Below are positions 14,644 to 61,104 of a DNA stretch of 64,000 nucleotides, piece after piece (position 1 is the stretch's first letter; each line of letters begins with the position of its first letter). The notes below the pieces were generated by a model that had not been told where the DNA came from, searched no databases, and saw only the letters and a program-made list of their open reading frames with translations. The DNA is from Mesostigma viride (taxonomy: Eukaryota; Streptophyta; Mesostigmatophyceae; Mesostigmatales; Mesostigmataceae). The stretch covers positions 413,501-477,500 of the forward strand of contig RPFO01000891.1 of assembly GCA_009746045.1 (NCBI GenBank), in the 5' to 3' direction. The position numbers were made by a program, and so were the translations under genes.

Positions 14644-14717
14644 GTAGACAACCTTCCTCGTCGGCTCGCGGCTAACAGGCTTCGGGGACAGCCTCTAAAT
14701 AGTCCCGTTCCACTACC

Positions 14718-17700: not shown

Positions 17701-18187
17701 ACTCACGGCAACACTGGCAGCCAAGCTAGACGGCACGGTAACCCGGATGCTCCGACAGGTCCTGAATGTCGGGTTTTCTCAGCGTAGGTCCTTAGAGTCT
17801 TTGTATCACGGTATGCCGCGTATTTCGGACGAGATTAGACAGCGTAGGATAGCATTTGTAGGACATCTTGCTCGCACCAGCCAGGTCGACACCGCCCTTG
17901 GTCTGGCCGGTCCCCAGCGGCTCGGCCAACCGGGGCGGCACATTTTGACCTGGCCTGGCCCCAAGAACATTCCTAAAAAGGTAGGGAAACATGCCATGAC
18001 CTATACCCAGATGTTGCTGGACGACCTAGTGGTCCCAGCCCAGTTTGAGTACCGCATCCACTCTCTCTCCCGTCTTTGGACTGCCATGCAGGACAAGGAG
18101 CGGTGGAAGAAGATTGTCAAGGCACACACGCCCGACCCTGTGGGCAAGCCACCTCCCCCCAAGCGGAGGAGGCGTTTTGATGAGTAG
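14718..18187 (+). pseudogene. LINE ORF2: APE endonuclease plus reverse transcriptase, one frameshift
   Basis: Encodes the target-nicking and copying enzyme. The first part (14718 to about 16385) holds an apurinic-type endonuclease: LATFNTRTL, ILGVQEHRR, VMLLDANATL, and the catalytic SDH in CSDHRLVRATL. The second (about 16395-18187) holds the reverse transcriptase: AEWQTAIRVMLYKKG, GNYRGVCLQSAALKV, LIFVDYIKAFDTV, GVWQGCVLSPYLF and the active site LIYADDTTLIA. A thumb/C-terminal region follows with TYGAEAWTL and RRIAFVGHLAR. The frames differ across a C10 run at about 16386-16395, and the shifted frame reads smoothly into HPETAARLGVAG before the downstream ORF. There is no RNase H domain. A one- or two-base change in this homopolymer would make it a single ORF, so it may be a sequencing error or one inactivating mutation. 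Clade not assigned. Confidence 0.85.
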
Positions 18188-24535: not shown

Positions 24536-24618
<83 letters not shown>

Positions 24619-34400: not shown

Positions 34401-34698
34401 CACGACGGCCGCGGCGGACCTCTACGCGGTGCTCGACAAGTTTGTCGTGTACAAGGGTCCCAAGGGGGAGCCGCTCGAGCCCTCGGTCGGCCTCCAGGTG
34501 GTCGTCACGCTGTTGCACTCAGGCCTGTGTGAGCGCATCAGCCTGTTCGGGTTCACACTCGACGGCGTGGGCCACTTTTTTGACGACAGTCTAGGGTATA
34601 GGACGGGCGGTGGCCTGTCGCAGCGCCACGTGGCGGGGCTGGAGAAGTATGTGTACAGCGTGGCGATGGCCAACGGCTTGCTGTGCATGTATGATTAG
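28453..34698 (+). CDS. Divergent GT29 (sialyltransferase-like) type II membrane protein
   Basis: Predicted glycosyltransferase-like protein of 1058 aa. Exons 28453-28746, 29047-29638, 32408-34698 join in phase (donors GTACGT and GTGTGC, acceptors TTCGTTCAG and TTCTGCAG, junction G|AT gives Asp). A long N-terminal region precedes a single membrane segment at about 261-283 ([18 protein letters not shown]). About 500 residues of Ala/Pro/Ser/Lys low complexity follow, then a C-terminal domain. The domain keeps the skeleton of sialylmotif L (about 822-870: [10 protein letters not shown]...IDAHRTVVR...VGRRTT), motif S (about 983: [10 protein letters not shown]...LFGF), a HFF in place of HYY, and a final H-x4-E (HVAGLE). 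Several usually conserved residues of motif L (the GNSG segment, RFN) are altered, so catalysis may be lost or changed. It is a distant paralogue of the gene at 1927-4636. Confidence 0.75.
29676..29802 (+). repeat. (GGGGAA)n hexamer array
   Basis: About 21 copies of GGGGAA on the plus strand, G-quadruplex-prone, at the start of intron 2. Followed by poly-G. Confidence 0.9.
29879..29902 (+). repeat. Poly-G run, about 24 bases
   Basis: Uninterrupted G run after GCGC. Its exact length in the assembly should be treated with caution. Confidence 0.85.
30967..31190 (+). repeat. (TTTG)n tetranucleotide array
   Basis: About 220 bases of TTTG with one TTTA variant near 31171, ending in a poly-T tract. 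The repeat yields VCLFVCLF frames that are not genes. Confidence 0.95.
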
Positions 34699-41768: not shown

Positions 41769-43777
41769 CCCAACCCCCTGCCTTACTGCCTGGCAAAGGT
41801 TAAAGGTTCCACGCGAAAATGGCTGACGGCGGTATGGCTGACGGCGGAGTTCAGATCTTTTGCGTCTGAGCCCCAAATTCGGTCAGACCACTTGCATTCG
41901 ATGCGCCTTTCTAAGACGCACTTGCCAGTATAAACGGTTACGGCTGCCACGCAGTATAGACAAAGTTACGCACGTGACCAGCTATGACGACTACCAAAGC
42001 AAAACGAGGGCTGGAAAAGGAGCTGGCACAGCTTCCCAGCGCCCAGCCCAACCCTCTCGCCCTCGCCATTGTTCAGCCGCCAGGCTTACCCGCCAAACCC
42101 TCGCCAAGCGCCTCGCCTGAGCCCAAGAAACCATGCCACGATCGCCACAAATGGAGCAAATTCTTGCCCGGCGACGGAATGTTCTCCCTCCTCGAGTGGC
42201 AGCAGCTGTCGCCGCAGGAAGTCGTCGAAGTTCTCCAGTTCCTCACACAGGAGCGGAAGCTCTTTGTGCCCTGGAGAGGGAGGGCGGCTATCGACTACCG
42301 CGACACGTCCTGGCTCTACACCTGTGCCGAATCCCGCCAACGCGAGTCTATCTTGACCAGCTACTACCAGCGCAGCTTCGGCGCCATCCACAGAGAACTT
42401 TGGAACGCACTCAACGCCCCAGCCCCCGCACAGCCGGCAGCCCCATCGGCTTCCTCCCTCTGCAAGGATGACATCCGCGCAGTGCTGGAGGAGCACGTGA
42501 CCTGGCCGCTGGCCGAGAAGATGACCTCGCTGAACACCACGCTCAACACGGTCGAGGCCCGGGTCTCCAACGTGGAAACCAAGGTCGTCCACAAGCTACA
42601 ACCACAGTTCACGGCGCTACACACCGCGGCGCAGGCTTCGGAAACGCATGCTGCACTTGTCTCTCGCCTTAACCAGGTGGAAGGCAAGTGCGGCGTGCTC
42701 ATGAAGAAGCTTGAGGCCATCACCGCCCACACCGAGGCCCTGGCCACACAGGTCCCAAAGCTAGCGGAGCAGACGGCCACCATTGCCTCCCAGCCACCCC
42801 GGCAGGATGCTGGTGACCTCCCGCTCTCCTACGCGGACCTGCTGCGGACAGCGACCGCCTCCACCACCGACGCCATCGCCACGAAGCTCCAGGAGCTGGA
42901 GGACCACCGCCAGGCCCAGCAACGGGAGGTCACCGATCGCGCTCGCCGCGAGTGCCGAGTGGTGCTACGTCGCTTCCCCCAGAAGCCAGGTGAGACGTCA
43001 ACCTCCCTTGCTGACGAGATCAAGAAACAGCTTCTTACCCTCATGGGCCTGGTAGGTGAGGTAGAACTGCGTGGGTGCCACCGCCTTCCCCACTCACGGG
43101 ACAAGGCGGCCACCCCACCAGTCCTGCTCACCTTCATCTCCCCTGAGGATAAGCAGCGGTTCCTCTCTCGTCGCAAGCGGTTGCACGACCTCACCTGGAC
43201 GCTGGATGACGACCTAACCCCCGCTCAGCAACAGCAGCGACGCGACCTGTGGCCGGAATACCTCCGCCATAAGCAGGACCCCCAGAAGCCCAAGGTGTAC
43301 TGGAGGGGCGGGGACCTGATGATCAACCACAAGATGTGGACGCCCCCAGCGGGCTAGAATAGCAATAGCCCTAGCTTGTAACCATTGGAGTCACTGTCGC
43401 TAAGGCAGCCATGCCTAGAATGTTTGCCTAGCTGTGCCAACAAACCTAGTCACGTGCCGCCAACGCACGGTACACAACCAGCCATAGCCTTAGCCTAGTT
43501 CTAGTACAGCCATGCTACGCCCTGGCTATGTTCAGATTACTTGCCCACGCTCCTTGCTATGACATGCTCACATGGGTCTTATTGCACCCACAGTTTGCCG
43601 GATCGTTAGCCTGTCCTTTTAGCTAGCCGCGCCCGATTGCAGCTGTGGCATGCCTTTGGCATGAAGGAGACTGGGGGTCTCTGCCCTTTCTCCTGTAGTG
43701 CACACACAGGGATTAAAAGCACTTCGGTGCTCCGTGACTCCCCAACGGGAGCACGAGTTTAATTAATTAATTAATTA
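41769..43777 (+). mobile_element. Complete family-B ORF1-only retroelement (B5)
   Basis: 2009 bp between perfect 12-bp repeats ATAACATGGGGA (41757-41768, 43778-43789). A 215-base 5' UTR shares a GGCTGACGGCGGAG block and a TTTCTAAGACGCAC block with family A. Then come one intact ORF1, a 400-base 3' UTR, the terminal hairpin and (TTAA)n. No ORF2. Best reference copy of the family. Confidence 0.9.
41984..43357 (+). CDS. Family-B ORF1 protein, intact, L1-ORF1p-like
   Basis: 457 aa, full-length, no lesion. Probably an RNA-binding, trimerising chaperone of the element RNA. The N-terminus (about 1-60) is Lys/Pro-rich. A conserved block of unknown fold follows (about 60-150, LEWQQLSPQEVVEVLQFLTQ), then a Pro/Ala linker. 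Heptad-type helices run at about 165-300 (VEARVSNVETKVV, LVSRLNQVEGKCGVLMKKLE). The RRM-like domain starts at about 325 (RRECRVVLRRFPQKPGETS, then GCHRLPHSRDKA, PVLLTFISPEDKQRFL). A C-terminal domain ends the protein (LDDDLTPAQQQQRRDLW, KVYWRGGDLMINHKMW). The order matches L1 ORF1p. Start context GACCAGCTATGACG; no upstream in-frame alternative. Confidence 0.8.
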   Translation: MTTTKAKRGLEKELAQLPSAQPNPLALAIVQPPGLPAKPSPSASPEPKKPCHDRHKWSKFLPGDGMFSLLEWQQLSPQEVVEVLQFLTQERKLFVPWRGRAAIDYRDTSWLYTCAESRQRESILTSYYQRSFGAIHRELWNALNAPAPAQPAAPSASSLCKDDIRAVLEEHVTWPLAEKMTSLNTTLNTVEARVSNVETKVVHKLQPQFTALHTAAQASETHAALVSRLNQVEGKCGVLMKKLEAITAHTEALATQVPKLAEQTATIASQPPRQDAGDLPLSYADLLRTATASTTDAIATKLQELEDHRQAQQREVTDRARRECRVVLRRFPQKPGETSTSLADEIKKQLLTLMGLVGEVELRGCHRLPHSRDKAATPPVLLTFISPEDKQRFLSRRKRLHDLTWTLDDDLTPAQQQQRRDLWPEYLRHKQDPQKPKVYWRGGDLMINHKMWTPPAG

Positions 43778-43789
43778 ATAACATGGGGA

Positions 43790-44032
43790 AGCCTATTATA
43801 ACATGGGGAAGCGCCGGCCCGCGTGTTTGCAAACGCGGGAAGCACGCTATAGACAAGACCCGTATAGGGTAGAGGGCACGTACATAGATATTAATTAATT
43901 AATTAATTAATTAATTAATTAATTAATTAATTAATTAATTAGGAACATAACTCCGTTGCAGGAGTATATGTAGCACATAGCCCTGCTAGATAGACCGTGG
44001 CCATGTACATGTACGCCTCCTACAGGCACTAT
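43790..44032. other. Junction region: AT repeats, minus-strand A tail, plus-strand A UTR
   Basis: Holds a second copy of the B5 target sequence (ATAACATGGGGAAGC), a GC-rich palindrome (CCCGCGTGTTTGCAAACGCGGG), (TTAA)n at about 43893-43940 and a minus-strand family-A stem-loop (43945-43971). From about 43976 there is a plus-strand family-A 3' UTR that continues at 61105 after the nested insertions. Confidence 0.6.
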
Positions 44033-45149
44033 TAATTAATTAATTAAACTCGTGCTCCCGTTGGGGAGTCACGGAGCACCGAAGTGCTTTTAATCCCTGT
44101 GTGTGCACTACAGGAGAAAGGGCAGAGACCCCCAGTCTCCTTCATGCCAAAGGCATGCCACAGCTGCAATCGGGCGCGGCTAGCTAAAAGGACAGGCTAA
44201 CGATCCGGCAAACTGTGGGTGCAATAAGACCCATGTGAGCATATCATAGCAAGGAGCGTGGGCAAGTAATCTGAACATAGCCAGGGCGTAGCATGGCTGT
44301 ACTAGAACTAGGCTAAGGCTATGGCTGGTTGTGTACCGTGCGTTGGCGGCACGTGACTAGGTGTGTTGGCACAGCTAGGCAAACATTCTAGGCATGGCTG
44401 CCTTAGCGACAGTGACTCCAATGGTTACAAGCTCAGTAGGGCTATTGCTATTCTAGCCCGCTGGGGGCGTCCACATCTTGTGGTTGATCATCAGGTCCCC
44501 GCCCCTCCAGTACACCTTGGGCTTCTGGGGGTCCTGCTTATGGCGGAGGTATTCCGGCCACACGGGTCGCGTCGCTGCTGTTGCTGAGCGGGGGTTAGGT
44601 CGTCATCCAGCGTCCAGGTGAGGTCGTGCAACCGCTTGCGACGAGAGAGGAACCGCTGCTTAATAATCCTCAGGGGAGATGAAGGTGAGCAGGACTGCAT
44701 GATGGGGTGGCCGCCTTGTCCCATGAGTGGGGAAGGCGGTGGCACCCACGCAGTTCTACCTCACCTACCAGGCCCATGAGGGTAAGAAGCTGGTTCTTGA
44801 TCTCGTCAGCAAGGGAGGTTGACGTCTCACCTGGCTTCTGGGGGAAGCGACGTAGCACCACTCGGCACTCGCGGCGAGCGCGATCGGTGACCTCCCGTTG
44901 CTGGGCCTGGCGGTGGTCCTCCAGCTCCTGGAGCTTCGTGGCGATGGCGTCGGTGGTGGAGGCGGTCGCTGACCGCAGCAGGTCCGCGTAGGAGAGCGGG
45001 AGGTCACCAGCATCCTGCCGGGGTGGCTGGGAGGCAATGGTGGCCGTCTGCTCCGCTAGCTTTGGGACCTGTCAGTGGCCAGGGCCTCGGTGTGGGCGGT
45101 GATGGCCTCAAGCTTCTTCATGAGCACGCCGCACTTGCCTTCCACCTGG

Positions 45150-45182
45150 AGGGGATTCATAAGTGTTTGCTCAATTTCATAA
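45150..45182 (+). repeat. Left terminal inverted repeat of the 15.2-kb element
   Basis: Starts AGGGGATTCATA and includes GTGTTTGCTCAATTTCA. Pairs with 60360-60392, mismatching at two positions. Confidence 0.9.
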
Positions 45183-45255
45183 ATTTTACTCAATTTTTCC
45201 ACATGTGATTAAATCCTTATATTTGTCAATAAAGCAGGGGTCATCCAGCCTTCAG

Positions 45256-47158
45256 ACCATGAAAATAGACCACCCACAAAAATTGGGCTCATTCTGAGCT
45301 CAAATGGTGACATGTGACAGCATACATGTGCAGTTTTTCGTCATTTTCCCCCTTTTCTTACATGAAACAAATATGAATAGTGAACAAATGAACTCATATC
45401 AGGCTGGATTCTTGCAGGCAGCATTTATACCATGAAAATAGACCACCCACAAAAATTGGGCTCATTCTGAGCTCAAATGGTGACATGTGACAGCATACAT
45501 GTGCAGTTTTTCGTCATTTCCCCCCTTTTCTTACATGAAACAAATATGAACAGTGAACAAATGAACTCGTATCAGGCTGGGTTCTTGCAGGCAGCATCTA
45601 TACCATGAAAATAGACCACCCACAAAAATTGGGCTCATTCTGAGCTCAAATGGTGACATGTGACCGCATACATGTGCAGTTTTTCGTCATTTTCCCCCTT
45701 TTCTTACATGCAACAAATATGAATAGTGAACAAATGAACTCATATCAGGCTGGATTCTTGCAGGCAGCATCTAGACCATGAAAATAGACCACCCACAAAA
45801 ATTGGGCTCATTCTGAGCTCAAATGGTGACATGTGACAGCATACATGTGCAGTTTTTCGTCATTTTCCCCCTTTTCTTACATGAAACAAATATGAACAGT
45901 GAACAAATGAACTCATATCAGGCTGGGTTCTTGCAGGCAGCATCTAGACCATGAAAATAGACCTCCCTCAAAAATTGGGCTCATTCTGAGCTCAAATGGT
46001 GACATTTGACCGCATACATGTGCAGTTTTTCGTCATTTTCCCCCTTTTCTTACATGAAACAAATATGAATAGTGAACAAATGAACTCATATCAGGCTGGA
46101 TTCTTGCAGGCAGCATCTAGACCATGAAAATAGACCACCCACAAAAATTGGGCTCATTCTGAGCTCAAATGGTGACATGTGACAGCATACATGTGCAGTT
46201 TTTCGTCATTTTCCCCCTTTTCTTACATGAAACAAATATGAACAGTGAACAAATGAACTCATATCAGGCTGGGTTCTTGCAGGCAGCATCTAGACCATGA
46301 AAATAGACCACCCACAAAAATTGGGCTCATTCTGAGCTCAAATGGTGACATTTGACCGCATACATGTGCAGTTTTTCGTCATTTTCCCCCTTTTCTTACA
46401 TGAAACAAATATGAATAGTGGACAAATGAACTCATATCAGGCTGGATTCTTGCAGGCAGCATGTAGACCATGAAAATAGACCACCCACAAAAATTGGGCT
46501 CATTCTGAGCTCAAATGGTGACATGTGACAGCATACATGTGCAGTTTTTCGTCATTTTCCCCCTTTTCTTACATGCAACAAATATGAATAGTGGACAAAT
46601 GAACTCATTTCAGGCTGGATTCTTGCAGGCAGCATTTATACCATGAAAATAGACCACCCACGAAAATTGGGCTCATTCTGAGCTCAAATGGTGACATGTG
46701 ACAGCATACATGTGCAGTTTTTCGTCATTTTCCCCCTTTTCTTACATGAAACAAATATGAATAGTGAACAAATGAACTCATATCAGGCTGGATTCTTGCA
46801 GGCAGCATTTATACCATGAAAATAGACCACCCACGAAAATTGGGCTCATTTTGAGCTCAAATGGTGACATGTGACAGCATACATGTGCAGTTTTTCGTCA
46901 TTTTCCCCCTTTTCTTACATGAAACAAATATGAATAGTGAACAAATGAACTCATTTCAGGCTGGATTCTTGCAGGCAGCATCTAGACCATGAAAATAGAC
47001 CACCCACAAAAATTGGGCTCATTCTGAGCTCAAATGGTGACATGTGACAGCATACATTTGCAGTTTTTCGTCATTTTCTCGGTTAACTTACATGAAACAA
47101 ATATGAATAGTGAACAAATGAACTCATATCAAGTTGGATTCTTGCAGGCAGCATTTAG
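45256..47158 (+). repeat. 173-bp satellite array, 11 copies (left arm)
   Basis: Unit starts are spaced exactly 173 bases apart (45256, 45429, 45602, 45775, 45948, 46121, 46294, 46467, 46640, 46813, 46986). Each unit contains ATGAAAATAGACCACCCAC, GAGCTCAAATGGTGACATG, a pyrimidine run before CTTACATGAAACAAATATG, and AGGCTGGATTCTTGCAGGC. Units differ by only a few substitutions, and alternating variants (ACATGTGACAG vs ACATTTGACCG) suggest higher-order turnover. The last unit degrades. Confidence 0.95.
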
Positions 47159-47411
47159 AAAATGCACATTGCCAGCTTTTACGTCATATCCCATTGAAAA
47201 AAAATAGATGAGCCATGAGCCATGAAACCTGTTCACCCAAATATGGTTTTATCCCATTTGATATATGTTCTACCAATTGTAAGGACATGTAATAAACCTA
47301 TGAACCAAGGTCATAAGACACGGAATGTGTTGATCACAAGGCTGCTAGCCGCAAAGCATGCACCGAGAAGGTAGGGCAGCCATGAAAAATTAAAAGCCAC
47401 ATGCGGCAAGG

Positions 47412-47693
47412 CTAGTCATCAGAGTCTGAATCAGGAATGATGGGAGGCCGGCGCTTGTGGCGCGGGGTGGCCTTGGCTTGCTTCATTGCCGTGGAACGCT
47501 GGGCGACCTGCTTGCGAATGCACTCAGTAATGTCCGCCTTCCCTCGCGCAATGCTCGCAGGTGGAAGATTTGGCAACTGCACACCGGGGCATGCGCAAAG
47601 CGCAGCCTGCACCTCATCAAATCCCACTATTTCATCGTCGCCATCGGAGTATAGCAGATGGGCCATGTCGTGCTCCTTACTAAAGGCCGTCAC
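47412..47693 (-). CDS. Small acidic-tailed ORF in the left arm, unknown function
   Basis: 93 codons on the minus strand, beginning MTAFSKEHDMAHLLYSDGDD and ending RRPPIIPDSDSDD. The sequence CGTGACGGCCTTTAG directly inside the start could be a splice acceptor, so this may be a last exon. Basic centre, acidic end; no domain recognised. Lies between the satellite array and the 210-bp repeat. Confidence 0.3.
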   Translation of the reverse strand: MTAFSKEHDMAHLLYSDGDDEIVGFDEVQAALCACPGVQLPNLPPASIARGKADITECIRKQVAQRSTAMKQAKATPRHKRRPPIIPDSDSDD

Positions 47694-47798
47694 GAGCGAT
47701 TATTCTAGCTCCGCAAAATTATTGCAATCAGCCAATTTGATCGAATTCACCATCGTCTCGCTCGGGGTTGGCACGCCTCTCCCAATGATGCCTGAGCT

Positions 47799-48008
47799 GG
47801 AAGCGCATAATTTGGCTCTGATGACACAAACTCTAGTGCGGGGGTGAGTGCGGGGTTCCGGGACACCACCGCACTAAGTCCGACGCGCCTGCCCAGGCCA
47901 CGCCGCGCCGGACCGGCACACGAGTTACGCGGGAAAAAAGGGCCTGCCGCGCCAATTACTGTAGGACTTGGCTAATTTCTTTGTTGACTACAAGCGCAGT
48001 CAAGGATG
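47799..48008 (+). repeat. Inner 210-bp inverted repeat, left copy
   Basis: Reverse complement of 56177-56386 with no difference that I can see over 210 bases, while the surrounding arms differ. Contains GC-rich DNA (GCCACGCCGCGCCGGACC). It may be the terminal repeat of a second, nested 8.6-kb element or an arm feature kept identical by gene conversion. No target duplication is evident next to it. Confidence 0.9.
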
Positions 48009-48191
48009 ATAAAACGTAGCAATGGCGGACATGTTAGGGTGATGCTCGGCTTAGGGACAGTGGACATGTTTGAGTGATTGCTCGCCAGACTCGAGCTCGC
48101 TGGCATACACGTCCGTGGCACCCTCGGCATTTAGCTGGGTTGACGCAAATCCTTGTACTGTTTACTGGTGTGTGCGATAATAAAGGAATGG

Positions 48192-48455
48192 TTATGCACG
48201 ACATCTAAATGCGAATATCACACAAAAACTGGTTCCTGGAATTCTCGCGAGCTGCGCGGTGTATGACTGGCGCTTTCCGTTTTTAATTTGCTTCTCGCCT
48301 TTTGTGCTCCAAACAGGGGGGTCGTTTACATCCACTGCAACAAAGTGCTCGTGACCTCCAGCTTTCATGGCCCGGCCCTGCCTTTGCTGCTTGACCAGCA
48401 CCAGACAGGGTGTGCTGGTGGCCATCCTCGCAATTTTTCTAGCGGTCAGCGGCAT
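48192..48455 (-). other. Minus-strand ORF opposite a candidate plus-strand exon
   Basis: 87 codons including GGHEHFVAVDVNDPPVWSTKG, ending at TAA in 48192-48194, preceded on the minus strand by CCGCTAG, a possible acceptor. It overlaps a plus-strand candidate exon (about 48312-48475, acceptor CCAAACAG, donor GTAAGG). Only one of the two is likely to be real, and I cannot decide which. Confidence 0.25.
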
Positions 48456-48886
48456 CGTGTGGGTCTGTGCCTTAGGTAAGGCGTTAAGCCCTTATTCCAG
48501 TTTCTGTCCAAATGGCACATCATATTAACTGTACTTGCTTCGTCTTGCGCATGCGGACCCCCCCCTTGTTAATGATGCGTTGTCCTGACATTAGCTTCGC
48601 ATGTGCATTAATGGGACGTGTTCCCGATGTGCATATTTCGGCCCATTATTACTTCAACATACAATTTCATGGCGATATTAACTATATGAATTAAATGCAT
48701 TTCCTCTTTCCTTAATCCTTCTAGTTATACCCTTTTTTCATGTTTGGTTGGTGGTTATCCATGTAGGGCATGTGGCGGTGCAAGAGCGCGCGCGGGTGCC
48801 TGCGAAGTTTTCAGTTGTCGCGCCTATCAACCCAGGTAAGCAAGGAGTAGAGGGAAAGACTAAGAATATATTTTCTGAATTTCTAG

Positions 48887-51800
48887 GTCATAGTTGTCCT
48901 TTTGCACGAGATGGAAGCGTTATGCCATGGGGCTTTATGGTTGGGTAATAGCCCTCCTGAGAACGGCTTGCTCTGCAACTTTGTTGGTATGTTCATACCT
49001 TGTCACGCGGCAATGTGGTGCAGATCTTCATGCATCCACATGGTGGATCACCTTGGCGTTATTGGCACTACATGTTGGTCTGAGGTAAGGAATCCATGCT
49101 ACCCTAAAACGACTAATGCACTGAATGCTCCTCTTTCAGTTTCCAGCGGAATACACAATGATGAGTTGTTTCAGATACTTCTTGGCGCCACGTGCGGCAC
49201 GCGGTGGGCCTAGCCTATTGGGATCTAGCGGAAGCTATTCTTAAGTTAGGGTTTATTTTTGGAGTTATATTGGCAGCCCCATGCAGCTATGCCTAGACTT
49301 GCTTGGCCATTTTGAGGTGCGATCGAGGTAGTTCATAACTTCTTTCTTCGCTGCCCTTTTTCCTTTTGCGCGTTGCTGAGCAGGGATATGCCGAGGTGCT
49401 CTCCTTATGTCCATGTCTGCATTTGGCACAAGGCACAATGCATCGCTCCAAAACGGCAGTCAGTTCGGCGACCCAGGCATCGCGGTATTGTTCGCCGCCT
49501 TCTCGCTCGGCGTAAAGCGGTGCGGCAACGCAAGCATCCTTCCTCACAGCGCGGGGAAAGCATCCCTCCCCCTCCCCCGCCACCTTCCCCGCAAAGGGAA
49601 ATAGTGTGGCATATGATACGTTTCGTACGCAGACTATACATCATACGCAGCTTTGCCGTACGGATGTTAAACGTATGCCTACGGATACGCGTACTCTTGC
49701 GTATTACGTACTCTCACGTATTATCTTTCTCTGCTTCCCCGCCACCCCCACCGCCACCGCCACCGCCACCGCCACCGCCACCGCCACCGCCACCGCCACC
49801 TTCTCCGCCACCTTCTCCGCCACTTTCTCCGCCACCTTCCCATGTTGGAGCACCTCCACCTGCGGCAGCGCCGGCACCGATTGGTCAGCACGGCGGACAA
49901 CCGTTTTCCAACGTACGTTGCCCTTCCATGTCGTTATCTCATTTTCCCGTTCGAACTCGCTCATGCTTGGTAGCGACATGGTCTGGAATGTTCTTGTTGT
50001 AAGCATCTTTCCATGATAATGGAGTTATTTGCATATAAGGCAGTTAGTGAGCTTCATAATGGCAACTTATGTTTATGGCGTCCCCAGCTAATTGCACCCA
50101 CCAAATCCATGACTATGTTGTAACTTGTAATTAGTTTCTGAACATCGTGTTTAATTTCTTATGTTGCTGACCCAAAACAGGGAAGTTCAAGACAAAATCC
50201 AACACCAGTGCCCAGTTGTGAAGGCACAAACAAGGCAACCAGGAAAAGGAAGGCCTCCTACAAGTGTGCTCGCAGAGGTATTTCTGGGAGGCGCTGCTGT
50301 GACAACACGGGCACCCATCCGGACAATCCACTTGTGGCCGGCCTTGAACCACTTCAATTCGTTGGCTCTCATTTATACTGCACGGGGTGCGCGGATGCTG
50401 TACGCTCCAAGAAAAGGTACGCTTGGGTATGCGCGTGTTGTTTTTACTCTACATGTCATCAATACATTGAACAACCTTTTTCTGATTTGCGTCGTTTATC
50501 AAGCACGGTCTCTTAGTTGCCTTAGCTTTCATGGTGTTCACCAAGGCCATATCAAATATTGTAGTAGTGCATAATGTAACTCTTTTGGCTGAATGTTCTT
50601 TGGGTTTTGTTGATTGGCCTGTGATTGGTCTTTATGGCCTGCTAGTTTTGGTTTACGGTATGGTTTTGCTTGGAAATAGATTTTTATTCTACAGAAGCCT
50701 TATTGCAGCGTTTATGGTAGATGAGCCCGTTTGGCAGCCCTATGCCGGGCGTAATCTTATCTTAACCTCGTGGCTTGTCCTTTCCTACTAGCACATTACT
50801 GACAAGCCACACACAACATGGGGTCGCAAGAAAACCTTAGCATAGCGCTCCATGGGGTGTTCATGGCAAGCCCAATGCGTGGTGGCTAAATGTTTAACCT
50901 TACTCGGGGGCTCGGCGTGCCATGCTTCCAAGTTCGTTGTCTCTTTTCATTAATATAACTCTCCCCATTTGTTACCCATTTGTCCCGCATTGTCTTACAT
51001 GAATGCTTTGTACTTTGCTGTATTCCGTGTTTGTGGCGTTTCAATATCGAGCAGCACCTTGAGCACTACGGAGATTAACCAATTTATTGACGCCCTGAAG
51101 CCTTACCCCAATGTTGACTGCGGTCAAATATATGAGACCCCCAAGCTCGCTAATCAGGCGCTCGACAAAGCCAACAAGCAAGAGCTCAAGAATGGGCCCC
51201 TAAATTTTCACGACCTCAACTGGGTGTTGGTGTTTTGCGATAAAGGTCCAAAGCAAAGGGTCCTTTTGCGATCTAGCTTACCAACCAACAGAACCGCTGA
51301 CTATTTGAGCGGCGAGGGCGAAAGGGCAAACTGCAAGCCTCGTTGTAGACGAAACGAGAGCAATGCACAAAAGACATCAAAAGCTTGCGCCCCGCCTTCG
51401 GACGCCCCACTGGATGCCGCCCCGGCTGCCGTGCCCTGCGCCCCGGCTGCCGTGCCCTCCGCCCCGGCTGCCGTGCCCTGCGCCCCGGCTGCCGTGCCCT
51501 CCGCCCCGGCTGCCGTGCCCTGCGCCCCGGCTGCCGTGCCATGCGCCCCGGCTGCCGTGCCCTCCGCCCCGGCTGCCGTGCCCTGCGCCCCGGCTGCCGT
51601 GCCCTCCGCCCCGGCTGCGGTGCCCTCCGCCCCGGCTGCGGCGCCCTCCGCCCCGGCTGCCGTGCCCTGCGCCCCGGCTGCTGTGCCCTCCGCCCTGGCT
51701 GCGGTGCCCTGCGCCCCGGCTGCTGTGCCCTCCGCCCCGGCTGCTGTGCCCTCCGCCCCGGCTGCCGTGCCCTGCGCCCCGGCTGCCGTGCCCTGCGCCC

Positions 51801-52477
51801 CGGCTGCCGTGCCCTGCGCCCCGGCTGCCGTGCCCTGCGCCCCGGCTGCCGTGCCCTCCGCCCCGGCTGCCGTGCCCTGCGCCCCGGCTGCGGTGCCCTC
51901 CGCCCCGGCTGCGGTGCCCTCCGCCCCGGCTGCGGTGCCCTCCGCCCCGGCTGCCGTGCCCTGCGCCCCGGCTGCCGTGCCCTGCGCCCCGGCTGCCGTG
52001 CCCTGCGCCCCGGCTGCCGTGCCCTCCGCCCCGGCTGCGGTGCCCTCCGCCCCGGCTGCGGCGCCCTCCGCCCCGGCTGCCGTGCCCTGCGCCCCGGCTG
52101 CTGTGCCCTCCGCCCTGGCTGCGGTGCCCTGCGCCCCGGCTGCTGTGCCCTCCGCCCCGGCTGCTGTGCCCTCCGCCCCGGCTGCCGTGCCCTGCGCCCC
52201 GGCTGCCGTGCCCTGCGCCCCGGCTGCCGTGCCCTGCGCCCCGGCTGCCGTGCCCTGCGCCCCGGCTGCCGTGCCCTCCGCCCCGGCTGCCGTGCCCTGC
52301 GCCCCGGCTGCGGTGCCCTCCGCCCCGGCTGCGGTGCCCTCCGCCCCGGCTGCGGTGCCCTCCGCCCCGGCTGCCGTGCCCTGCGCCCCGGCTGCGGTGC
52401 CCTCCGCCCCGCGGGGTGCATCATCAACATTAGCTGCCGGACAAGAAGTGCAGGAGGATGATCCGGACAGCGATTCA

Positions 52478-52557
<80 letters not shown>

Positions 52558-54067
52558 CGACTGCCCGACTGCCCGACGGCCCGACGGCCCGACTGCCCGA
52601 CTGTCCGACTGCCCGACTGCCCGACTGCCCGACTGCCCGACTGCCCGACTGCCCGACTGCCCAACTGCCCGACTGCCCGACTGCCGACTGCCCGACTGCC
52701 CGACTGCCCGACTGCCCAACTGCCCGACTTCCCGACTGCCCGACTGCCCGACTGCCCGACTGCCCGACTGCCCGACTGCCCGACTGCCCGACTGTCCGAC
52801 TGCCCGACTGCCCGACTGCCCGACTGCCCAACTGCCCGACTTCCCGACTGCCCGACTGCCCGACTGCCCGACTGCCCGACTGCCCGACTGTCCGACTGCC
52901 CGACTGCCCGACTGCCCGACTTCCCGACTGCCCGACTTCCCGACTGCCCGACTGCCCGACTGCCCGACTGCCCGACTGCCGGACTGCCCGACTGCCCGAC
53001 TGCCGGACTGCCCGACTGCCCGACTGCCGGGCTGCCCGACTGCCCGACTGCCGGACTGCCCGACTGTCCGACTGCCCGACTGCCCGACTGCCCGACTGCC
53101 CGACTGCCCGACTGCCCGACTGCCCGACTGCCCGACTGCCCGACTGCCCGACTGCCCGACTGCCCGACTGCCCGACTGCCCGACTGCCCGACTGCCCGAC
53201 TGCCCGACTGCCCGACTGCCCGACTGCCCGACTGCCCGACTGCCCGACTGCCCGACTGCCCGACTGCCCGACTTCCCGACTGCCCGACTGCCCGACTGCC
53301 CGACTGCCCGACTGCCGGACTGCCCGACTGCCCGACTGCCGGACTGCCCGACTGCCCGACTGCCGGGCTGCCCGACTGCCCGACTGCCGGACTGCCCGAC
53401 TGTCCGACTGCCCGACTGCCCGACTGCCCGACTGCCCGACTGCCCGACTGCCCGACTGCCCGACTGCCCGACTGCCCGACTGCCCGACTGCCCGACTGCC
53501 CGACTGCCCGACTGCCCGACTGCCCGACTGCCCGACTGCCCGACTGCCCGACTGCCCGACTGCCCGACTGCCCGACTGCCCGACTGCCCGACTGCCCGAC
53601 TGCCCGACTGCCCGACTTCCCGACTGCCCGACTGCCCGACTGCCCAACTGCCCGACTGCCCGACTGCCAACCTAACGAACTCCCTCTCACTGCGTCTCTC
53701 TCTGCTGGGCTTCCTTTTCCCTTTTTCTCCCCCGTTATTGTATTGTGGTTGTGCATGTGCATGTAATGCCCATATGTACGCAAATAGAAAAAGAGATTCC
53801 TGAAGTTTTTCATCCATAGCTTGTCACGAATCATTGTTTGTGTGTGGTTGAGTCCAGGGTTCTAAACTCAGTGCTTGTCTATTTGCTCTTAATGCAGGAG
53901 GTGGTGACCGAGCTTTCGGCATGAAGATTCCAAGACTACCCTCATATTGGAGCATTATCAGCTGGCAGCTGCAAATGCCCAAGGGCTGCAATGGATGGAG
54001 CTCTCGAGTTGAAGGGCCCATTATCATAAAGGCCTGCCTTCACGTTGGCCATGTTACACAGTCATGA
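48887..54067 (+). CDS. Spliced gene inside the 15.2-kb element, unknown function
   Basis: Candidate exons 48887-48944, 49024-49084 and from 49140 join in phase ([51 protein letters not shown]). Further on, an exon ending at 49912 (Pro-rich, donor GTACGT), exon 50181-50416 and an exon from 51055 also join in phase. Exon 50181-50416 is basic with Cys/His pairs ([28 protein letters not shown]) that could bind zinc. The next exon encodes [20 protein letters not shown] and then runs open for 2.7 kb through repeats. A terminal exon 53898-54067 (acceptor TTAATGCAG) encodes [20 protein letters not shown]... to TGA, followed by AATAAA at 54070. The connection between the first and second exon groups and the 3' end of the repeat exon are unresolved. 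No transposase or known domain recognised. Confidence 0.4.
49742..49830 (+). repeat. (CCGCCA)n-type tract
   Basis: Hexamer repeat encoding poly-Pro on the plus strand, or a pyrimidine-rich intron tract. About 15 units. Confidence 0.8.
51415..52412 (+). repeat. 21-bp minisatellite (CAPAAVP repeat), 47 units
   Basis: Units of GCCCCGGCTGCCGTGCCCTGC with TCC/TGC and GCC/GCG/GCT variants, encoding a 7-residue repeat in frame with the preceding exon. Variant markers (GCCCTGGCTGCGG at about 51690 and 52110) show a 420-bp higher-order period of 20 units. All six frames remain partly open. Confidence 0.95.
52477..52558 (+). repeat. (ACGC)n microsatellite
   Basis: About 20 uninterrupted ACGC units joining the 21-bp and 8-bp minisatellites. 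Confidence 0.95.
52559..53668 (+). repeat. 8-bp minisatellite (CTGCCCGA)n, about 138 units
   Basis: Near-perfect octamers. Variant octamers (GCCGGA, GCCGGG, TGTCCG, TTCCCG, CCCAAC) mark a 336-bp higher-order duplication (for example the marker block at 52978-53064 and 53314-53401). Because 8 bases shift frame each unit and no unit contains a stop, long frames ([16 protein letters not shown]) appear on both strands and should not be called genes. Confidence 0.95.
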
Positions 54068-54070
54068 ATG

Positions 54071-56176
54071 AATAAATTAATAAACACGTAGACAGCGTCA
54101 GCATATTTCCTGATGGAATGGGGAAGGGGGGATGGGGACAGTCATAAGCTAGCCGCAGTGGTGCAGTATCATGTGTCTTATATGCATACTGCTATAAAAC
54201 TGGGCACCTTGAAAATTTTCCTCGTGGGCTAGCTAGGATCCATGCGACAACTGGATGATTGTGAGGTTCTTCAACATCTACCTGGTCAGTAATAAAGTTG
54301 CAGTAGTAAGTAAAGTTGCAGGTGGCCGGCCAACACAAGGTATGCGTTGCTAACATTCAACACATGCATGCGTCTGCTGATTTAATAATGCATACCGATG
54401 CTGGTTGACCTTGATAGCTAATTTATTGGCGGATCCACACGTCACGTTGCCGTAAGTAATAATCATAAGATGTCATGATTGACTGCGTCAACGAGCATAC
54501 ATCCCCATTGGAATGGTTGAGCAATGAGCCCCGACCAAATTATCAGTCAAACCTTAATTTGGGTTGAAAGAGCGTCAAACACATTCTTGATTGTCCAAAT
54601 TCTTACTATATGATCTGACGTGCATCCATCCTCACAATGCCAATGGCCGCTATCTCATGGATGACAGGAACATGTTTCCTGCTCTAAAATTAAATTAAAT
54701 AAATTATAGCATGCCTCGGTGGGGTGGGCATGTAGCACCTAGAGTGCTTTCCAGTCCCTGTAAGTTGCACAGTGGGAAAGGGGCAAAGACACCTGCGTCC
54801 TCACTCATGCCCGAAGGCAGGCCACAGCTGCGTTCAACGCTCGTTGGACTATGGCAAACTGTGGGTGTGCTAAAGCTGAAATATGCGCGAGTATGCTGGT
54901 ATGTTGGCTGCTCTAAGGACCGAGCCACTGATGGCCAGTGGTGGAATCATCTTGCACGTAGTCTAGCTAGCCAACCCCAACACTGTCCCAAGGTACCTAG
55001 CCACAAAGACCCCACTAGCTGCAGGCATGGGTGCCAACAAAGTGTGATTCGGCTAGGATCGGCTCCCAAACATGCGAGCCATACATGTGTGCTTTACATT
55101 TACGCACACACTGACAACCTCAGCCCAGGTCGATCCACGTTGGTTGACATTAGACAACGTATTGACGCTGTAATTACCAAATAAGCAAAAAAGCTCACCA
55201 TGGGCTCAACAATTTTCAGGCACGGCATGTGCACGGCAGTTGCCTGCACCTATTTTACAATGCACGTCAGTGGTAAAAAGCTTGGTACTGTATTTCATTG
55301 ATATTTGTAATGCCATCCTTGCCTGCATGTCCCAAGGGCTACTCCAAAAAAAGAAGAAGCAGTATCAACGACAAGCTTTCTACTTTAGGACACAAGGATC
55401 CCTATACAAACACTCATACAAGAACAAACCCAGCATTCAACAAACCCATCACCAAATGATACAGTGGTCAGTCACACTCTGCAACACTAAACTTGAAGGA
55501 TACAGCAACACTAGCAACCTACGCAAAATAAGCAAGATACTGTAACAGATACATGTGGTCCAGTTCCCAGATACGGGCTGACAGTTCCGCGAGGGCCGAC
55601 AAGGTGTGCTACCAAGCTTTACGCAGAAAATCAGAAGAGAAAGGCGCGCACGATGACCGCGTCCAGACGCATTTCCCGGTATATCTCTTCAAGGTCTACT
55701 TGGAAACTTGGTAGCGAGGTATGGAGAGGCAATGCATAAAAAGCTCGGAAGCTAACGAGAGAAGGCAGGGTGGGGGGAAGAAGACAGGACGGGACGTTGG
55801 AGGAACGCATGAGACGGAGGGAGGGAGCGAGCAAGGGAGGGAGGGAGGGAGAAAAAAACGAGAGAGGGAAAGATTGCCAGACAAAAGATCGATTCGAAGA
55901 GGAAACTAAGTGTGCCGACATTACTGCGAGTAGAGAAAGCAGAATTTTTATTGCTATGGATCCCAGGGACGTCAAAGACTGTTTGTCTCCTACTTTAGAC
56001 AAATTAGGGTCCGATGATTATACTTTAGAACAACCATGGCATTCTCGTCGCCCAACTTCCCGGCTGCGCAATTGCCAGGCAATAGTCACTACTGCATCAC
56101 AAAGAAACCAGATTTTTGCCACCTTCAAGCGTAAATTGCCAGCACCTTGGCAAAAATAATGCAATGATGCCAATTG
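54071..56176. other. Inner right part of the 15.2-kb element, no supported gene
   Basis: Holds a diverged minus-strand family-B tail at about 54700-54835 (GTGCTTTCCAGTCCCTGTAAG, CATGCCCGAAGGCAGGCCAC), a GGGA/GAGA-rich tract at 55800-55870 and an ORF ending at 56159 (MDPRDVKDCLSPTLDKLGSD...) with no recognised domain. AT-richer than the host genes. Confidence 0.45.
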
Positions 56177-56386
56177 CATCCTTGACTGCGCTTGTAGTCA
56201 ACAAAGAAATTAGCCAAGTCCTACAGTAATTGGCGCGGCAGGCCCTTTTTTCCCGCGTAACTCGTGTGCCGGTCCGGCGCGGCGTGGCCTGGGCAGGCGC
56301 GTCGGACTTAGTGCGGTGGTGTCCCGGAACCCCGCACTCACCCCCGCACTAGAGTTTGTGTCATCAGAGCCAAATTATGCGCTTCC
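56177..56386 (-). repeat. Inner 210-bp inverted repeat, right copy
   Basis: Partner of 47799-48008. Same length and apparently identical. Confidence 0.9.
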
Positions 56387-56429
56387 CCTCTCCTGCCTCT
56401 TTTGTGGCTCGATCTTCCACCGACTCAGC

Positions 56430-57115
56430 GCGGCGTATGAAAGTTCCATTCATGCAGAATTCATTCACCGACCCCCAACACTGACCGTACAGCCAGAACA
56501 TACGAAAAGGTCTTGCATTCTCAATGAAAATGGGCTGTAACGGCATTCCATTGAGAATTCCATTCAGAACTCATTCACCGACCCCCAACACTGACCGTAC
56601 AGCCTGAATTGGGCTGAACATGCGAAAAGGACTTGCATTCTCAATGAAAATGGGCTGTTGCGGCATTCCATTGAGAATTCCATTGAGAACTCATTCACCG
56701 ACCCCCAACACTGACCGTACAGCCTGAACTGGGCTGAACATGCGAAAAGGACTTGCATTCTCAATGAAAATGGGCTGTTGCGGCATTCCATTGAGAATTC
56801 CATTGAGAACTCATTCAACGACCCCCAACACTGACCGTACAGCCTGAACTGGGCTGAACATGCAAAAAGGTCTTGCATTCTCAATGAAAATGGGCTGTTG
56901 CGGCATTCCATTGAGAATTCCATTGAGAACCCATTCACCGACCCCCAACACTGACCGTACAGCCTGAACTGGGCTGAACATGCGAAAAGGACTTGCATTC
57001 TCAATGAAAATGGGCTGTTGCGGCATTCCATTGAGAATTCCATTGAGAACCCATGCACCGACCCCCAACACTGACCGTACAACCTGAACTGGGCTGAACA
57101 TGCGAGAAACGAAGG
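56430..57115 (+). repeat. 120-bp tandem repeat, 5.7 copies
   Basis: Unit contains CATTCACCGACCCCCAACAC, TGACCGTACAGCCTGAACTG and TCTCAATGAAAATGGGCTG with an exact 120-base period and few substitutions. The first unit lacks about 9 bases. As 120 is divisible by three, an open minus-strand frame (CSAQFRLYGQCWGSV...) spans it. I regard this as a by-product. Confidence 0.95.
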
Positions 57116-57342
57116 ACCATCCAAAAGTGAAAAAATTCTGATTCAAACAGTCCGCGGTGTTGTCCGAGCCTCGCATGCAAATGGCATTTGAATGAACAAA
57201 GCACAGTGACCGTCGTCTTTGCGCGCGCGCGGCTGCAGGTGCGTACAGCCTGCCAAGCACTACCGGTAATTACTTTGTGCGCGCACGAACAAAACCAACG
57301 TCGCCGGCGATTGTTTACCAAAACGTGCCTGCATAATATGAT

Positions 57343-57987
57343 ATGGCAATGAGTGAAACTGAGAACCAGAGGGCAAAACGCCTGTGTTATGCAAATACTT
57401 TAGGTGTTTGCGTGTTAGATCATGAAGATGGGGCAGATAACCAATGTCAGGGGAGATTGACGTGCAGGTGCTTTGTGTACGTCGAAAATATTGTTCATGA
57501 ACGGATTTTGGCAACGGTGAAGAAATTCTGGAAGCTACGTAGATGGCATGATAGGTCAGTATGCTGTTCGGTTTTACAATTTCTTTTTCCGCCCAGTAGC
57601 TGCGGATATCGCGAGTATGGGTTATGGTACGCTTCTGGGCTAATGGGCGACCCGGGCAACAGAGGGACCTGGGCAGTTAGATGGGTCAAAGAGTCTCCAT
57701 TTTTTCGTCGTGATATCGCAGTCACGCCTGGCGAAAACCACGGCGAGCGCGAGCCATATTTTACTTTTGCCGCAAGGCTGGGTGCTTCCCGGGCGTCACC
57801 GTCCTTTAATATATATTTCTTGAGCTGTTCCGCGCAGCTGGCGGCCTGGGCGCACGTCAAGAACAAGGTTCCGGATGTCATCCGCAACCGCGTCGTTCTA
57901 AATAAGCGTGTCAAGAGTATCGTAGCTTATAACTCCCGCAGACTTTATGATTCCGGTTCTTTTCGATGCCCAACGTCGTGGTTGTGA
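57343..57987 (+). CDS. Uncharacterised 214-codon ORF in the right arm
   Basis: Opens at ATG 57343 (MAMSETENQRAKRLCYANTL) and closes at TGA. It has normal amino-acid diversity and no repeats, with several Cys (DNQCQGRLTCRC), Trp/Arg-rich segments (KKFWKLRRWHDRSV, RGTWAVRWVKESPF) and a helical LSCSAQLAAWAHVKNKVPDV. No domain recognised. The minus-strand overlap at 57495-57914 is weaker. It lies between the 120-bp repeats and the right satellite array, so it may be a second gene of the element or an exon of a larger one. Confidence 0.45.
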   Translation: MAMSETENQRAKRLCYANTLGVCVLDHEDGADNQCQGRLTCRCFVYVENIVHERILATVKKFWKLRRWHDRSVCCSVLQFLFPPSSCGYREYGLWYASGLMGDPGNRGTWAVRWVKESPFFRRDIAVTPGENHGEREPYFTFAARLGASRASPSFNIYFLSCSAQLAAWAHVKNKVPDVIRNRVVLNKRVKSIVAYNSRRLYDSGSFRCPTSWL

Positions 57988-58720
57988 TTACGCCTATGTC
58001 CGGGGAACTTAAAGGAAGTTTGCTGGGTAATGCTTTCTTTTCCCGTGTTGTCACTGAAAAGGTAAACGGCCTTGTGTCGTCAAAACAGCAGCAAGCAGAA
58101 GTCACTGTGCTTAGAATTGCAATGTGGTAGTTTGATTTAAAACATATACTGCCTTGTTGCTGAAAACTTTTTCAAGGCCTGCTGGGATGTTGCCCATATG
58201 TTTCCAACGCTTTAACTCATGTCCAAGTGAGCTAGACTGGCTTGGAAACTTGAGCTTGTCATGCTTACATTGTGCTTGTATTGCTATTTGTGCCTCTTTG
58301 CAGTATCTGCTTTATATATAATTGAAGGCTTCAGCATCATTGTCGAGCACCGTGGTGGCAGCCAAGCCTCCAATAACGATCATGGACCTAACCTTGCCAA
58401 GTATTTGCTTCTTATTATTTCATTCTTTGGACTGAGCTAGCTTTGAGCTAGCTTTACACCTGCTGTTTGGCCTGCACCATGGTCCCTGGCTGCCAGTTAC
58501 ATTTTGTGCCCCCCCCGGCAGGCTGCAGGGTCTAGGATAGCGAGGGTGTAACGTAGTAGACATGTTGTGGGCACCCTGGGTGCATTTTCAGGACCAGCCT
58601 TTACTTTACCTGGCCCTGCCTTCTTTCTGGGCATATTGTTGACTTGAGTGCTTGTTGGTCACTCGCGTAGCGACCCCCCTGCATTCATAAATCGTAAACC
58701 ATTATACAATGAGCATATTT
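57988..58720. other. Right-arm unique DNA, no gene recognised
   Basis: Contains direct repeat GAGCTAGCTTT near 58436-58455 and a C-run near 58509. No supported coding region. Confidence 0.4.
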
Positions 58721-58737
58721 CATGGATGTTAAGCTTG

Positions 58738-60310
58738 CAAGAATCCAGCTTGATATGAGTTCATTTGGTCATGATTCCTATTTGTTTCATGTAAGAAACC
58801 GGTGCAAATGGCGTAAAACTGCATATTCATACTGTCACATGTCACCATTTGAGCTCATAATGAGCCCAATTTTTGTAGGTGGTGTAGTATTATGGTTTAA
58901 ATGTAGCTTGCAAGAATCCAGCTGGATATGAGTTCATTGGTTCATGATTCCTATTTGTTTCATGTAAGAAACCGGTGCAAATGACAAAAGGTTGCATATT
59001 TATACTGTCACATGTCACCATTTGAGCTCATAATGAGCCCAATTTTTGTAGGTGGTCTAGTATTATGGTTTAAATGTAGCTTGCAAGAATCCAGCTCGAT
59101 ATGAGCTCATTTGGTCATGATTCCTATTTATTTCGTGTAAGAAAACGATGAAAATGGCGTAAAACTGCATATTTATACTGTCACATGTCACCATTTGAGC
59201 TCATAATGAGCCCAATTTTTGTAGGTGGTGTAGTATTATGGTTTAAATGTTGCTTGCAAGAATCCTGGCAGCTCGATATGAGTTCATTTGGTCATGATTC
59301 CTATTAGTTTCATGTAAGAAACCGGTGCAAATGACGAAAAGCTGCATATTTACACTGTCACATGTCACCATTTGAGCTCAGAATGAGCCCAATTTTTGTG
59401 GGTGGTCTATTTTCATGGTCTAGATGCTGCTTGCAAGAATCCAGCCTGAAATGAGTTCATTTGTTCACTATTCATATTTGTTTCATGTCAGAAAAGGGGG
59501 AAAATGACGAAAAACTGCACATGTATGCTGTCACATGTCACCATTTGAGCTCAGAATGAGCCCAATTTTTGTGGGTGGTCTATTTTCATGGTCTAGATGC
59601 TGCCTGCAAGAATCCAGCCTGAAATGAGTTCATTTGTCCACTATTCATATTTGTTTCATGTAAGAAAAGGGGGAAAATGACGAAAAAATGCACATGTATG
59701 CTGTCACATGTCACCATTTGAGCTCAGAATGAGCCCAATTTTTGTGGGTGGTCTATTTTCATGGTCTACATGCTGCCTGCAAGAATCCAGCCTGAAATGA
59801 GTTCATTTGTCCACTATTCATATTTGTTTCATGTAAGAAAAGGGGGAAAATGACGAAAAACTGCACATGTATGCTGTCACATGTCACCATTTGAGCTCAG
59901 AATGAGCCCAATTTTTGTGGGTGGTCTATTTGCATGGTCTACATGCTGCCTGCAAGAATCCAGCCTGAAATGAGTTCATTTGTCCACTATTCATATTTGT
60001 TTCATGTAAGAAAAGGGGGAAAATGACGAAAAACTGCACATGTATGCTGTCACATGTCACCATTTGAGCTCAGAATGAGCCCAATTTTTGTGGGTGGTCT
60101 ATTTTCATGGTCTAGATGCTGCCTGCAAGAATCCAGCCTGATATGAGTTCATTTGTTCACTATTCATATTTGTTTCATGTAAGAAAAGGGGGAAAATGAC
60201 GAAAAACTGCACATGTATGCTGTCACATGTCACCATTTGAGCTCAGAATGAGCCCAATTTTCGTGGGTGGTCTATTTTCATGGTCTACATGCTGCCTGCA
60301 ACAGTCCAGC
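58738..60310 (-). repeat. 173-bp satellite array, nine-plus copies (right arm)
   Basis: Reverse-complement form of the left-arm satellite. Starts of CAAGAATCC lie at 58738, 58911, 59084, 59257, 59434, 59607, 59780, 59953 and 60126, 173 bases apart except one 177-base unit with a 4-base insertion. The four inner units are clearly more diverged than the outer five, which nearly match the left arm. The tenth unit is cut at about 60310. Confidence 0.95.
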
Positions 60311-60359
60311 TTTAGGTACCCTCAGATCTGAAAGATTTTTTTTTTACTCATTTGAAGAC

Positions 60360-60392
60360 TTGTGAAATTGAGCAAACACCTATGAATCCCCT
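60360..60392 (-). repeat. Right terminal inverted repeat of the 15.2-kb element
   Basis: Ends TATGAATCCCCT. Pairs with 45150-45182. Followed by the duplicated CCTGG. Confidence 0.9.
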
Positions 60393-61104
60393 CCTGGTGA
60401 AGGCGAGAGACAAGTGCAGCATGCGTTTCCGAAGCCTGCGCCGCGGTGTGTAGCGCCGTGAACTGTGGTTGTAGCTTGTGGACGACCTTGGTTTCCACGT
60501 TGGAGACCCGGGCCTCGACCGTGTTGAGCGTGGTGTTCAGCGAGGTCATCTTCTCGGCCAGCGGCCAGGTCACGTGCTCCTCCAGCACTGCGCGGATGTC
60601 ATCCTTGCAGAGGGAGGAAGCCGATGGGGCTGCCGGCTGTGCGGGGGCTGGGGCGTTGAGTGCGTTCCAAAGTGCTCTGTGGATGTCGCCGGAGCTGCGC
60701 TGGTAGTATAGCTGGTCAAGATAAACAGGCGTTGGCGGGATTCGTCACAGGTGTAGAGCCAGGACGTGTCGCGGTAGTCGATAGCCGCCCCCCCTCTCCA
60801 GGTCACAAAGAGCTTCCGCTCCTGTGTGAGGAACTGGAGAACTTCGACGACTTCCTGCGGCGACAGCTTCTGCCACTCGAGGAGGGAGAACATTCCGTCG
60901 CCGGGCAAGAATTTGCTCCATTTGTGGCGATCGTGGCATGGTTTCTTGGGCTCAGGCGAGGCGCTTGGCGAGGGTTTGGCGGGTAAGCCTGGCGGCCGCT
61001 GAACAATGGCGAGGGCGAGAGGGTTGGGCTGGGCGCTGGGAAGCTGTGCCAGCTCCTTTTCCAGCCCTCGTTTTGCTTTGGTAGTCGTCATAGCTGGTCA
61101 TATA

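Follow-up and report, generated by a model that had tools for sequence, protein, structure and literature searches.

A recently moved, gene-stripped DNA transposon with satellite arms in Mesostigma viride, and DUF7869 as the probable transposase of its family

Tandem repeats close to the ends of an element have been described in several groups of DNA transposons. CACTA elements typically have subterminal repeats and a layout of two genes, and the capture of a satellite by CACTA has been reported, there near the 3' end (PMC8978399). The internal tandem repeats of the terminal inverted repeats (TIRs) of Galileo hold additional transposase binding sites, and Tetris of Drosophila virilis is a foldback element with 8-10 bp duplications for which, in the available text of its description, no transposase was found and an affiliation with Mutator, which itself makes duplications of 8-10 bp, was suggested (PMC4079207). 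With regard to ends and duplications, the available part of one survey gives the CMCT clade mostly CA..TG ends, duplications of 2-5 bp and the motifs C(2)C and H(3-4)H between the second D and the last E, canonical Harbinger elements a 3-bp duplication and KDZ/Zisupton elements one of 8 bp (PMC12730594). Transposable elements are abundant in the streptophyte Mesostigma viride, the repeat library of which was classified with Repbase and REPET (PMC6947507). The window described here, a stretch of 64,000 nucleotides of that genome (contig C1802, positions 413501-477500), contains an outer element, a copy of a DNA transposon that moved recently and has lost most of its genes, with arms of satellite DNA and a second, unrelated element nested within it. 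It is very likely, in our judgement, that this copy derives by deletion from a recently active family of TIR transposons, that a protein with the Pfam domain DUF7869 is the catalyst of that family and that a Mutator-like element nested in the copy later.

The outer element and its site of insertion comprise the following features:

45149..60393, no strand assigned: outer DNA transposon (a non-autonomous copy), 15,245 bp with the nested insertion counted in
45146..45148, plus strand: target site duplication CTG, left copy
60394..60396, plus strand: target site duplication CTG, right copy
45149..45184, plus strand: left terminal inverted repeat, GAGGGGATTCATAAGTGTTTGCTCAATTTCATAAAT
60358..60393, minus strand: right terminal inverted repeat, which when reversed matches the left end at 33/36
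42673..42680, minus strand: region of the empty site, in the host repeat's inverted copy (blastn self comparison, flanks joined)

The termini read GAGGGG..CCCCTC and the ends are inverted, as an earlier sequence-only reading of the window had it, and agree in that orientation at 33 of their first 36 bases; each end lies one base further out than in that reading, which moves them to 45149 and 60393. The same reading had given a 5-bp duplication, CCTGG, which is rejected here as a false extension. The duplication is the 3-bp CTG, and CCTGG is CTG together with neighbouring bases that agree by chance, since the flanking G and C occur in every copy read and a length of 3 bp fits 29 of 30 end pairs. 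Self-comparison reveals two inverted copies of the host repeat in the window, one of which is without the insert, whilst in the other a 459-residue open reading frame (ORF) of the repeat is broken by the outer element. When the flanks are artificially joined they equal the empty site, which had rightly been placed near 42673, save for the additional copy of the duplication and a single adjacent substitution. The sequence-only reading was to be given up if no second copy or empty site existed; both were looked for and found, and its large DNA element with terminal inverted repeats and satellite arms, inserted in a repeat, survives. The host repeat itself, at 41978-45149 and 60393-61100, is present as two head-to-head copies that form a palindrome at 42673-45149, and its 459-residue ORF (41978-43357) has a relative, 87% identical over 351 positions, within another copy of the element, L025.

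The whole assembly (440 Mb, 2243 contigs) was scanned for the ends. The terminal 12-mer AGGGGATTCATA has 175 + 178 occurrences as opposed to 2 + 3 for its reversed control, and the search for paired ends that had been suggested found that, among the 100 matches listed, 58 form 29 adjacent plus/minus pairs with a spacing of 4.9-18.4 kb. Twenty of the 29 pairs were read whole, which with the window gives 21 whole copies, and nine more pairs were read at their ends (eight from among the 29 and, on C108, a pair 32.6 kb apart); a mini copy on C777 and a nested pair at C2:4791261 stand outside this count of 30. In all 21 whole copies a G precedes AGGGG, a C follows CCCCT and the next three bases agree on both sides, and eight of the nine pairs read at their ends also match at 3 bp, giving an exact 3-bp duplication in 29/30 end pairs compared with 12/870 mispaired controls. 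Among the 30 left-hand triplets 24 different ones occur, and thus there is no strong target triplet. The mini copy (L065, C777:4340716-4340995) is an element of 82 bp with little beyond its two ends, flanked by CTG and CAG with no matching 3-bp duplication.

Two of these copies date the movement of the outer element. L017 (6,649 bp, without the nested insertion) is the same as the outer element of the window over 2645 + 4007 bp with zero differences, and L012 differs from it by one mismatch. As the sequences are nearly identical and their duplications differ (CTG in the window, CCC in L017 and CGA in L012), the three represent independent insertion events of almost one and the same molecule, and the identity of the outer element (6.65 kb) with a copy at another site indicates very recent movement.

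The same two copies divide what had been proposed as a single unit of 15.2 kb into an outer element and a nested one, since window positions 47794-56386 are missing from both L017 and L012. The nested element has these parts:

47799..56386, no strand assigned: nested Mutator-like element (insertion interval relative to L017, 47794-56386)
47799..48008, plus strand: left TIR (210 bp) of the nested element
56177..56386, minus strand: right TIR (210 bp) of the nested element

The inner segment is 8.6 kb in size, and its 210-bp inverted repeat is 100% identical; the repeat had been correctly recognised but attributed to the outer element instead of to the nested one, of which it forms the TIR. The end of this TIR is found 61 + 67 times in the genome with up to two mismatches, and 0 times for the control, and members of the family have an exact 9-bp duplication in three of five pairs (one pair being 54 kb apart). 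There are 106 genome matches to PF10551 (MULE transposase), of which 26 score 58.3-58.7 bits, and 24 of those 26 are on contigs in the TIR listing, with 16 within a plus/minus TIR pair, seven by one listed TIR and one by none. Because of the 9-bp duplications in part of the TIR family and the presence of PF10551 between its TIR pairs the inner segment is, judged by its sequence, a Mutator-like element that landed in the outer copy. Mutator-like elements make duplications of 8-11 bp, and the nested family is like them in its long TIR, in the 9-bp duplications of three of five pairs and in having PF10551 between TIR pairs elsewhere; the copy in the window is unlike them in its imperfect duplication, with CCT on both sides, and in that no transposase domain was recognised in the two of its ORFs scanned against Pfam. 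We give next to no credence to the original proposal of a single, novel giant element of 15.2 kb: the assembly is contiguous between both ends, as that proposal would expect, but L017 is the same base for base without 47794-56386 and this interval belongs to a separate Mutator-like family with an end of its own, by which the proposal is refuted. Two minisatellites lie inside the nested element, a 21-bp unit repeated 47 times at 51417-52411 and an 8-bp unit repeated 139 times at 52558-53668.

Both arms of the outer element consist of a 173-bp satellite, the units of which were counted with Tandem Repeats Finder (TRF):

45254..47159, plus strand: left arm, 11 units (11.0 by TRF) of the 173-bp satellite
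58736..60310, minus strand: right arm, about 9 units (9.1 by TRF), satellite inverted

The inverted orientation of the arms is as the sequence-only reading described it. Both arms are present in 21/21 whole copies, with 4-14 and 4-13 units, and such long inverted arms of tandem repeats in every whole copy place the element in the foldback structural class. The satellite was not detected in the window outside the element at E 1e-3, and no relative of the left arm was found in phage records. Over 345 units, positions 26-59 are conserved at or near 100%, save position 41 (86%), whilst other regions drop to 71% in places. The conserved core includes a near-palindrome, TTGGGCTCA-TTC-TGAGCTCAA, and the terminal inverted repeat of the outer element contains TTGCTCAA, which points to a candidate binding site for a protein. 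Most likely the 173-bp arms would be tandem arrays of binding sites for one protein of the element, and a role as a binding platform would explain why copies with large deletions keep both arms while losing genes; the repeats within the Galileo TIRs (PMC4079207) are a precedent for such a role.

The genes of the outer family are represented in the window by two remnants and by the array next to one of them:

47415..47693, minus strand: remnant, 3' end of the DUF7869 gene (100% to residues 135-227 of the L009 C-terminal ORF, tblastn)
57337..57984, plus strand: remnant of the accessory gene, 5' end (58 residues that are 52% identical to the PHD-like N-terminus of L026)
56496..57105, plus strand: array of 120-bp units (TRF)

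One spliced gene had been proposed over 47.4-58.0 kb, which is rejected as it is really two gene remnants of the outer element with the nested element between them. In L009 a similar 120-bp array separates the facing 5' ends of two divergent genes. All 21 whole copies hold pieces of at least one of the two genes, and among them a whole DUF7869 core is found in L009 only, as a plus-strand ORF of 753 residues that matches Pfam DUF7869 with an E of 2.3e-14 (53.9 bits, curated cut-off 26), with the accessory gene on the minus strand. The ORF after the core has a weak Tudor-like match (4.8e-4, 20.3 bits, under the 27.2 cut-off) and would be part of the same protein, as a weak match in another family (E 0.012) faintly suggests. 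The accessory gene of L026 has an N-terminal weak match to PHD (E 0.1) and a glutamine-rich C-terminal stretch. Over 95% of its length the DUF7869 ORF of L009 shows full identity with the gene model jgi/Mesvir1 (P0002), which supports an intron with an AG acceptor ahead of the core. In this genome DUF7869 has at least 150 matches, and in 14 control genomes none. Sixteen of the matches have an L009-subfamily score, with the 753-residue frame open in 12, and the three of these 16 that are on contigs of listed AGGGGATTCATA matches (C1, C2 and C446) all lie between plus and minus AGGGGATTCATA ends. Between L009 and L041 there are three base differences in 2259, each of which alters a residue. The top-scoring DUF7869 subfamily (L030, L039) has long repeat tails rich in glycine, alanine and arginine that are in frame with the domain.

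When six DUF7869 proteins of this genome are aligned, all of which match the profile, three positions are invariant acids: D204, D297 and D336/D338, the last in the motif GHTHxDxDQ. The first and second are separated by 91-101 residues and the second and third by exactly 38 (or 40), and CxxC precedes the first. The pattern D-(91-101)-D-38-D (or 40) resembles that of DDE/D transposases and the acids may have the corresponding catalytic role; DUF7869 is probably a DDE-type transposase, of a lineage not matched to any described one.

A second family of elements carries a DUF7869 protein (the L050 type) that is 25% identical to that of the outer family. Its ends were located by comparison across copies, a scan of a single copy having given none, and 12 other L050-type copies start within five bases of the same place. 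The TIR begins CCCTACCAGCC and the ends are CCCTACC; the terminus CCCTACCAGCCATTT has 16 + 14 occurrences, most of which form pairs with a spacing of about 8.9 kb, and its control has none. In each of 10 pairs read (one of 4.2 kb) the TIR is identical over 32 bases and there is an exact 3-bp duplication, which was seen in 2/90 mispaired combinations. Thirteen second-family copies have further units, 77-79% alike, at a 173-bp spacing near the right end. That two DUF7869 families have different ends and the same length of duplication is the strongest evidence for DUF7869 as the catalyst. Upstream of the second-family DUF7869 gene in L063 there is a 333-bp palindrome (3830-4162), 95% self-complementary, which together with the start of the gene recurs at 99% in at least 24 further places without most of the upstream sequence (40 of 612 candidates scored).

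It would seem very unlikely that the accessory protein, or an unseen third one, is the true transposase and DUF7869 a passenger. The fuller copy does carry both genes and the assignment of the catalyst is made from sequence; however, the accessory pieces in L026 match PHD fingers only, and weakly (E 0.1), whilst DUF7869 recurs in the second family, where the ends are different but a 3-bp duplication is again made. Several further points weigh against DUF7869 as the catalyst of a family with docking arms. A mechanism common to both DUF7869 families could depend on another protein as its catalyst. A single-sequence AlphaFold model of P0002, with a mean predicted local distance difference test (pLDDT) score of 34, gives no support for an RNase H fold, no sequence relative was found in the PDB, and protein searches gave no relative outside Mesostigma, with the gene model P0002 as the only match. 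The repeat units of the second family are known for the right end only, not both arms, and have no detectable similarity to the 173-bp satellite of the outer element. The copies read whole were picked as end pairs of less than 10 kb, the 18.4-kb pair on C224 is the one of 30 without a duplication, two copies on C335 have common flanks and represent one event, and the 82-bp mini copy on C777 has neither duplication nor satellite, so that ends alone can exist without arms. Viral contigs, which were also searched, held no relative.

With DUF7869 as the catalyst, the outer element would belong, as a deletion derivative, to a recently active Mesostigma viride family, and fuller copies, L009 among them, would provide the products that move it in trans. 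The protein with the DUF7869 core would join DNA with a 3-bp stagger, by DDD-type catalysis and a cut-and-paste route, and the second, divergent gene would supply an accessory protein that is weakly similar to PHD and has a glutamine-rich tail; the Mutator-like element entered this copy afterwards. A wider proposal, which we favour only slightly, is that DUF7869 marks an undescribed superfamily of eukaryotic DDD transposons that make 3-bp duplications, with at least two families that moved very recently in Mesostigma viride, in which tandem arrays near the ends serve for docking and chromatin-reader-like modules may steer integration. The modules in question may be the Tudor-like tail and the PHD-like partner, both of which are weak matches. 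With these results a Pfam domain without an assigned function gains one that can be tested, a probable new transposase lineage is found in an early-branching streptophyte and satellite DNA is seen to multiply as the arms of a transposon; near-identical copies make tests of binding and excision straightforward.

Elsewhere in the window there are two ORFs with sialyltransferase family 29 domains (2135-4636 and 32164-34698), ORFs of a retroelement that have domains for an endonuclease and a reverse transcriptase (14703-18187) and, on the minus strand at 19480-27154, ORFs of a multidomain acetyl-CoA carboxylase that include its biotin carboxylase and its carboxyl transferase.

The L009 protein is above the curated cut-off of Pfam DUF7869 (PF25273), an entry without an assigned function, and what is new is the link between this domain and elements with defined ends and duplications. 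As Repbase was not among the searches made the claim of novelty is limited to them: in the literature searched, which did not include Repbase, no mention was found of DUF7869, PF25273 or IPR057191, the last of which we take, perhaps wrongly, to be the entry number for DUF7869. The outer element is not described in the available text on the Mesostigma viride genome (PMC6947507). It is possible, though we are doubtful, that a DUF7869 family has already been named in Repbase or in unpublished curation, so that these elements would be a known superfamily whose name has no tie to the Pfam entry, which would affect novelty only and is compatible with the explanation given above. Pfam already models the domain, and superfamilies sometimes appear only as Repbase Reports, for example Lanisha, but Lanisha itself is placed in CMCT (cited, and so placed, in the available part of PMC12730594), and the literature searched is silent on DUF7869 and PF25273.

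In its 3-bp duplication the outer element resembles PIF/Harbinger. The Harbinger-type DDE domain is DDE_Tnp_4 in Pfam, and this affiliation is rejected as the Pfam scan gave no match of that type in the DUF7869 protein. Polinton/Maverick elements have genes for a protein-primed polymerase, an integrase and a capsid and make a 6-bp duplication; they are rejected on the 3-bp duplication and because none of their domains was found in the L009 and L026 ORFs scanned. A Mutator affiliation of the outer element is likewise rejected on the length of the duplication. Zisupton/KDZ elements are like the DUF7869 elements in having a class of transposase outside the classical superfamilies, but their duplication is 8 bp rather than 3 and the Pfam scan gave no KDZ match, on which grounds they too are rejected.

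CACTA/EnSpm (CMCT) is like the outer element in its 3-bp duplication, its subterminal repeats and the combination of a transposase with a second protein, the repeats and two genes being typical of CACTA in the available text of PMC8978399. The outer element could on this basis be a divergent member, with DUF7869 as a passenger or as a very divergent CACTA transposase, which we regard as very unlikely. Of three CMCT features only the duplication length agrees: the ends are GAGGGG..CCCCTC here and CCCTACC in the second family instead of CA..TG, and where CMCT has C(2)C and H(3-4)H after the second D, DUF7869 has only 38-40 residues from the second D to the third. No CACTA transposase family appeared in the Pfam scan to E 10, although HMMER filters drop most weak matches, and ends, motif arrangement and absent domain together lead us to reject CACTA/EnSpm. 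Finally, Tetris is like the outer element in having TIRs around a tandem array of variable length (TIR-220) and non-autonomous copies (available text of PMC4079207), and differs from it in that it makes duplications of 8-10 bp and no transposase was found for it, whereas here a 3-bp duplication goes together with a DUF7869 protein.

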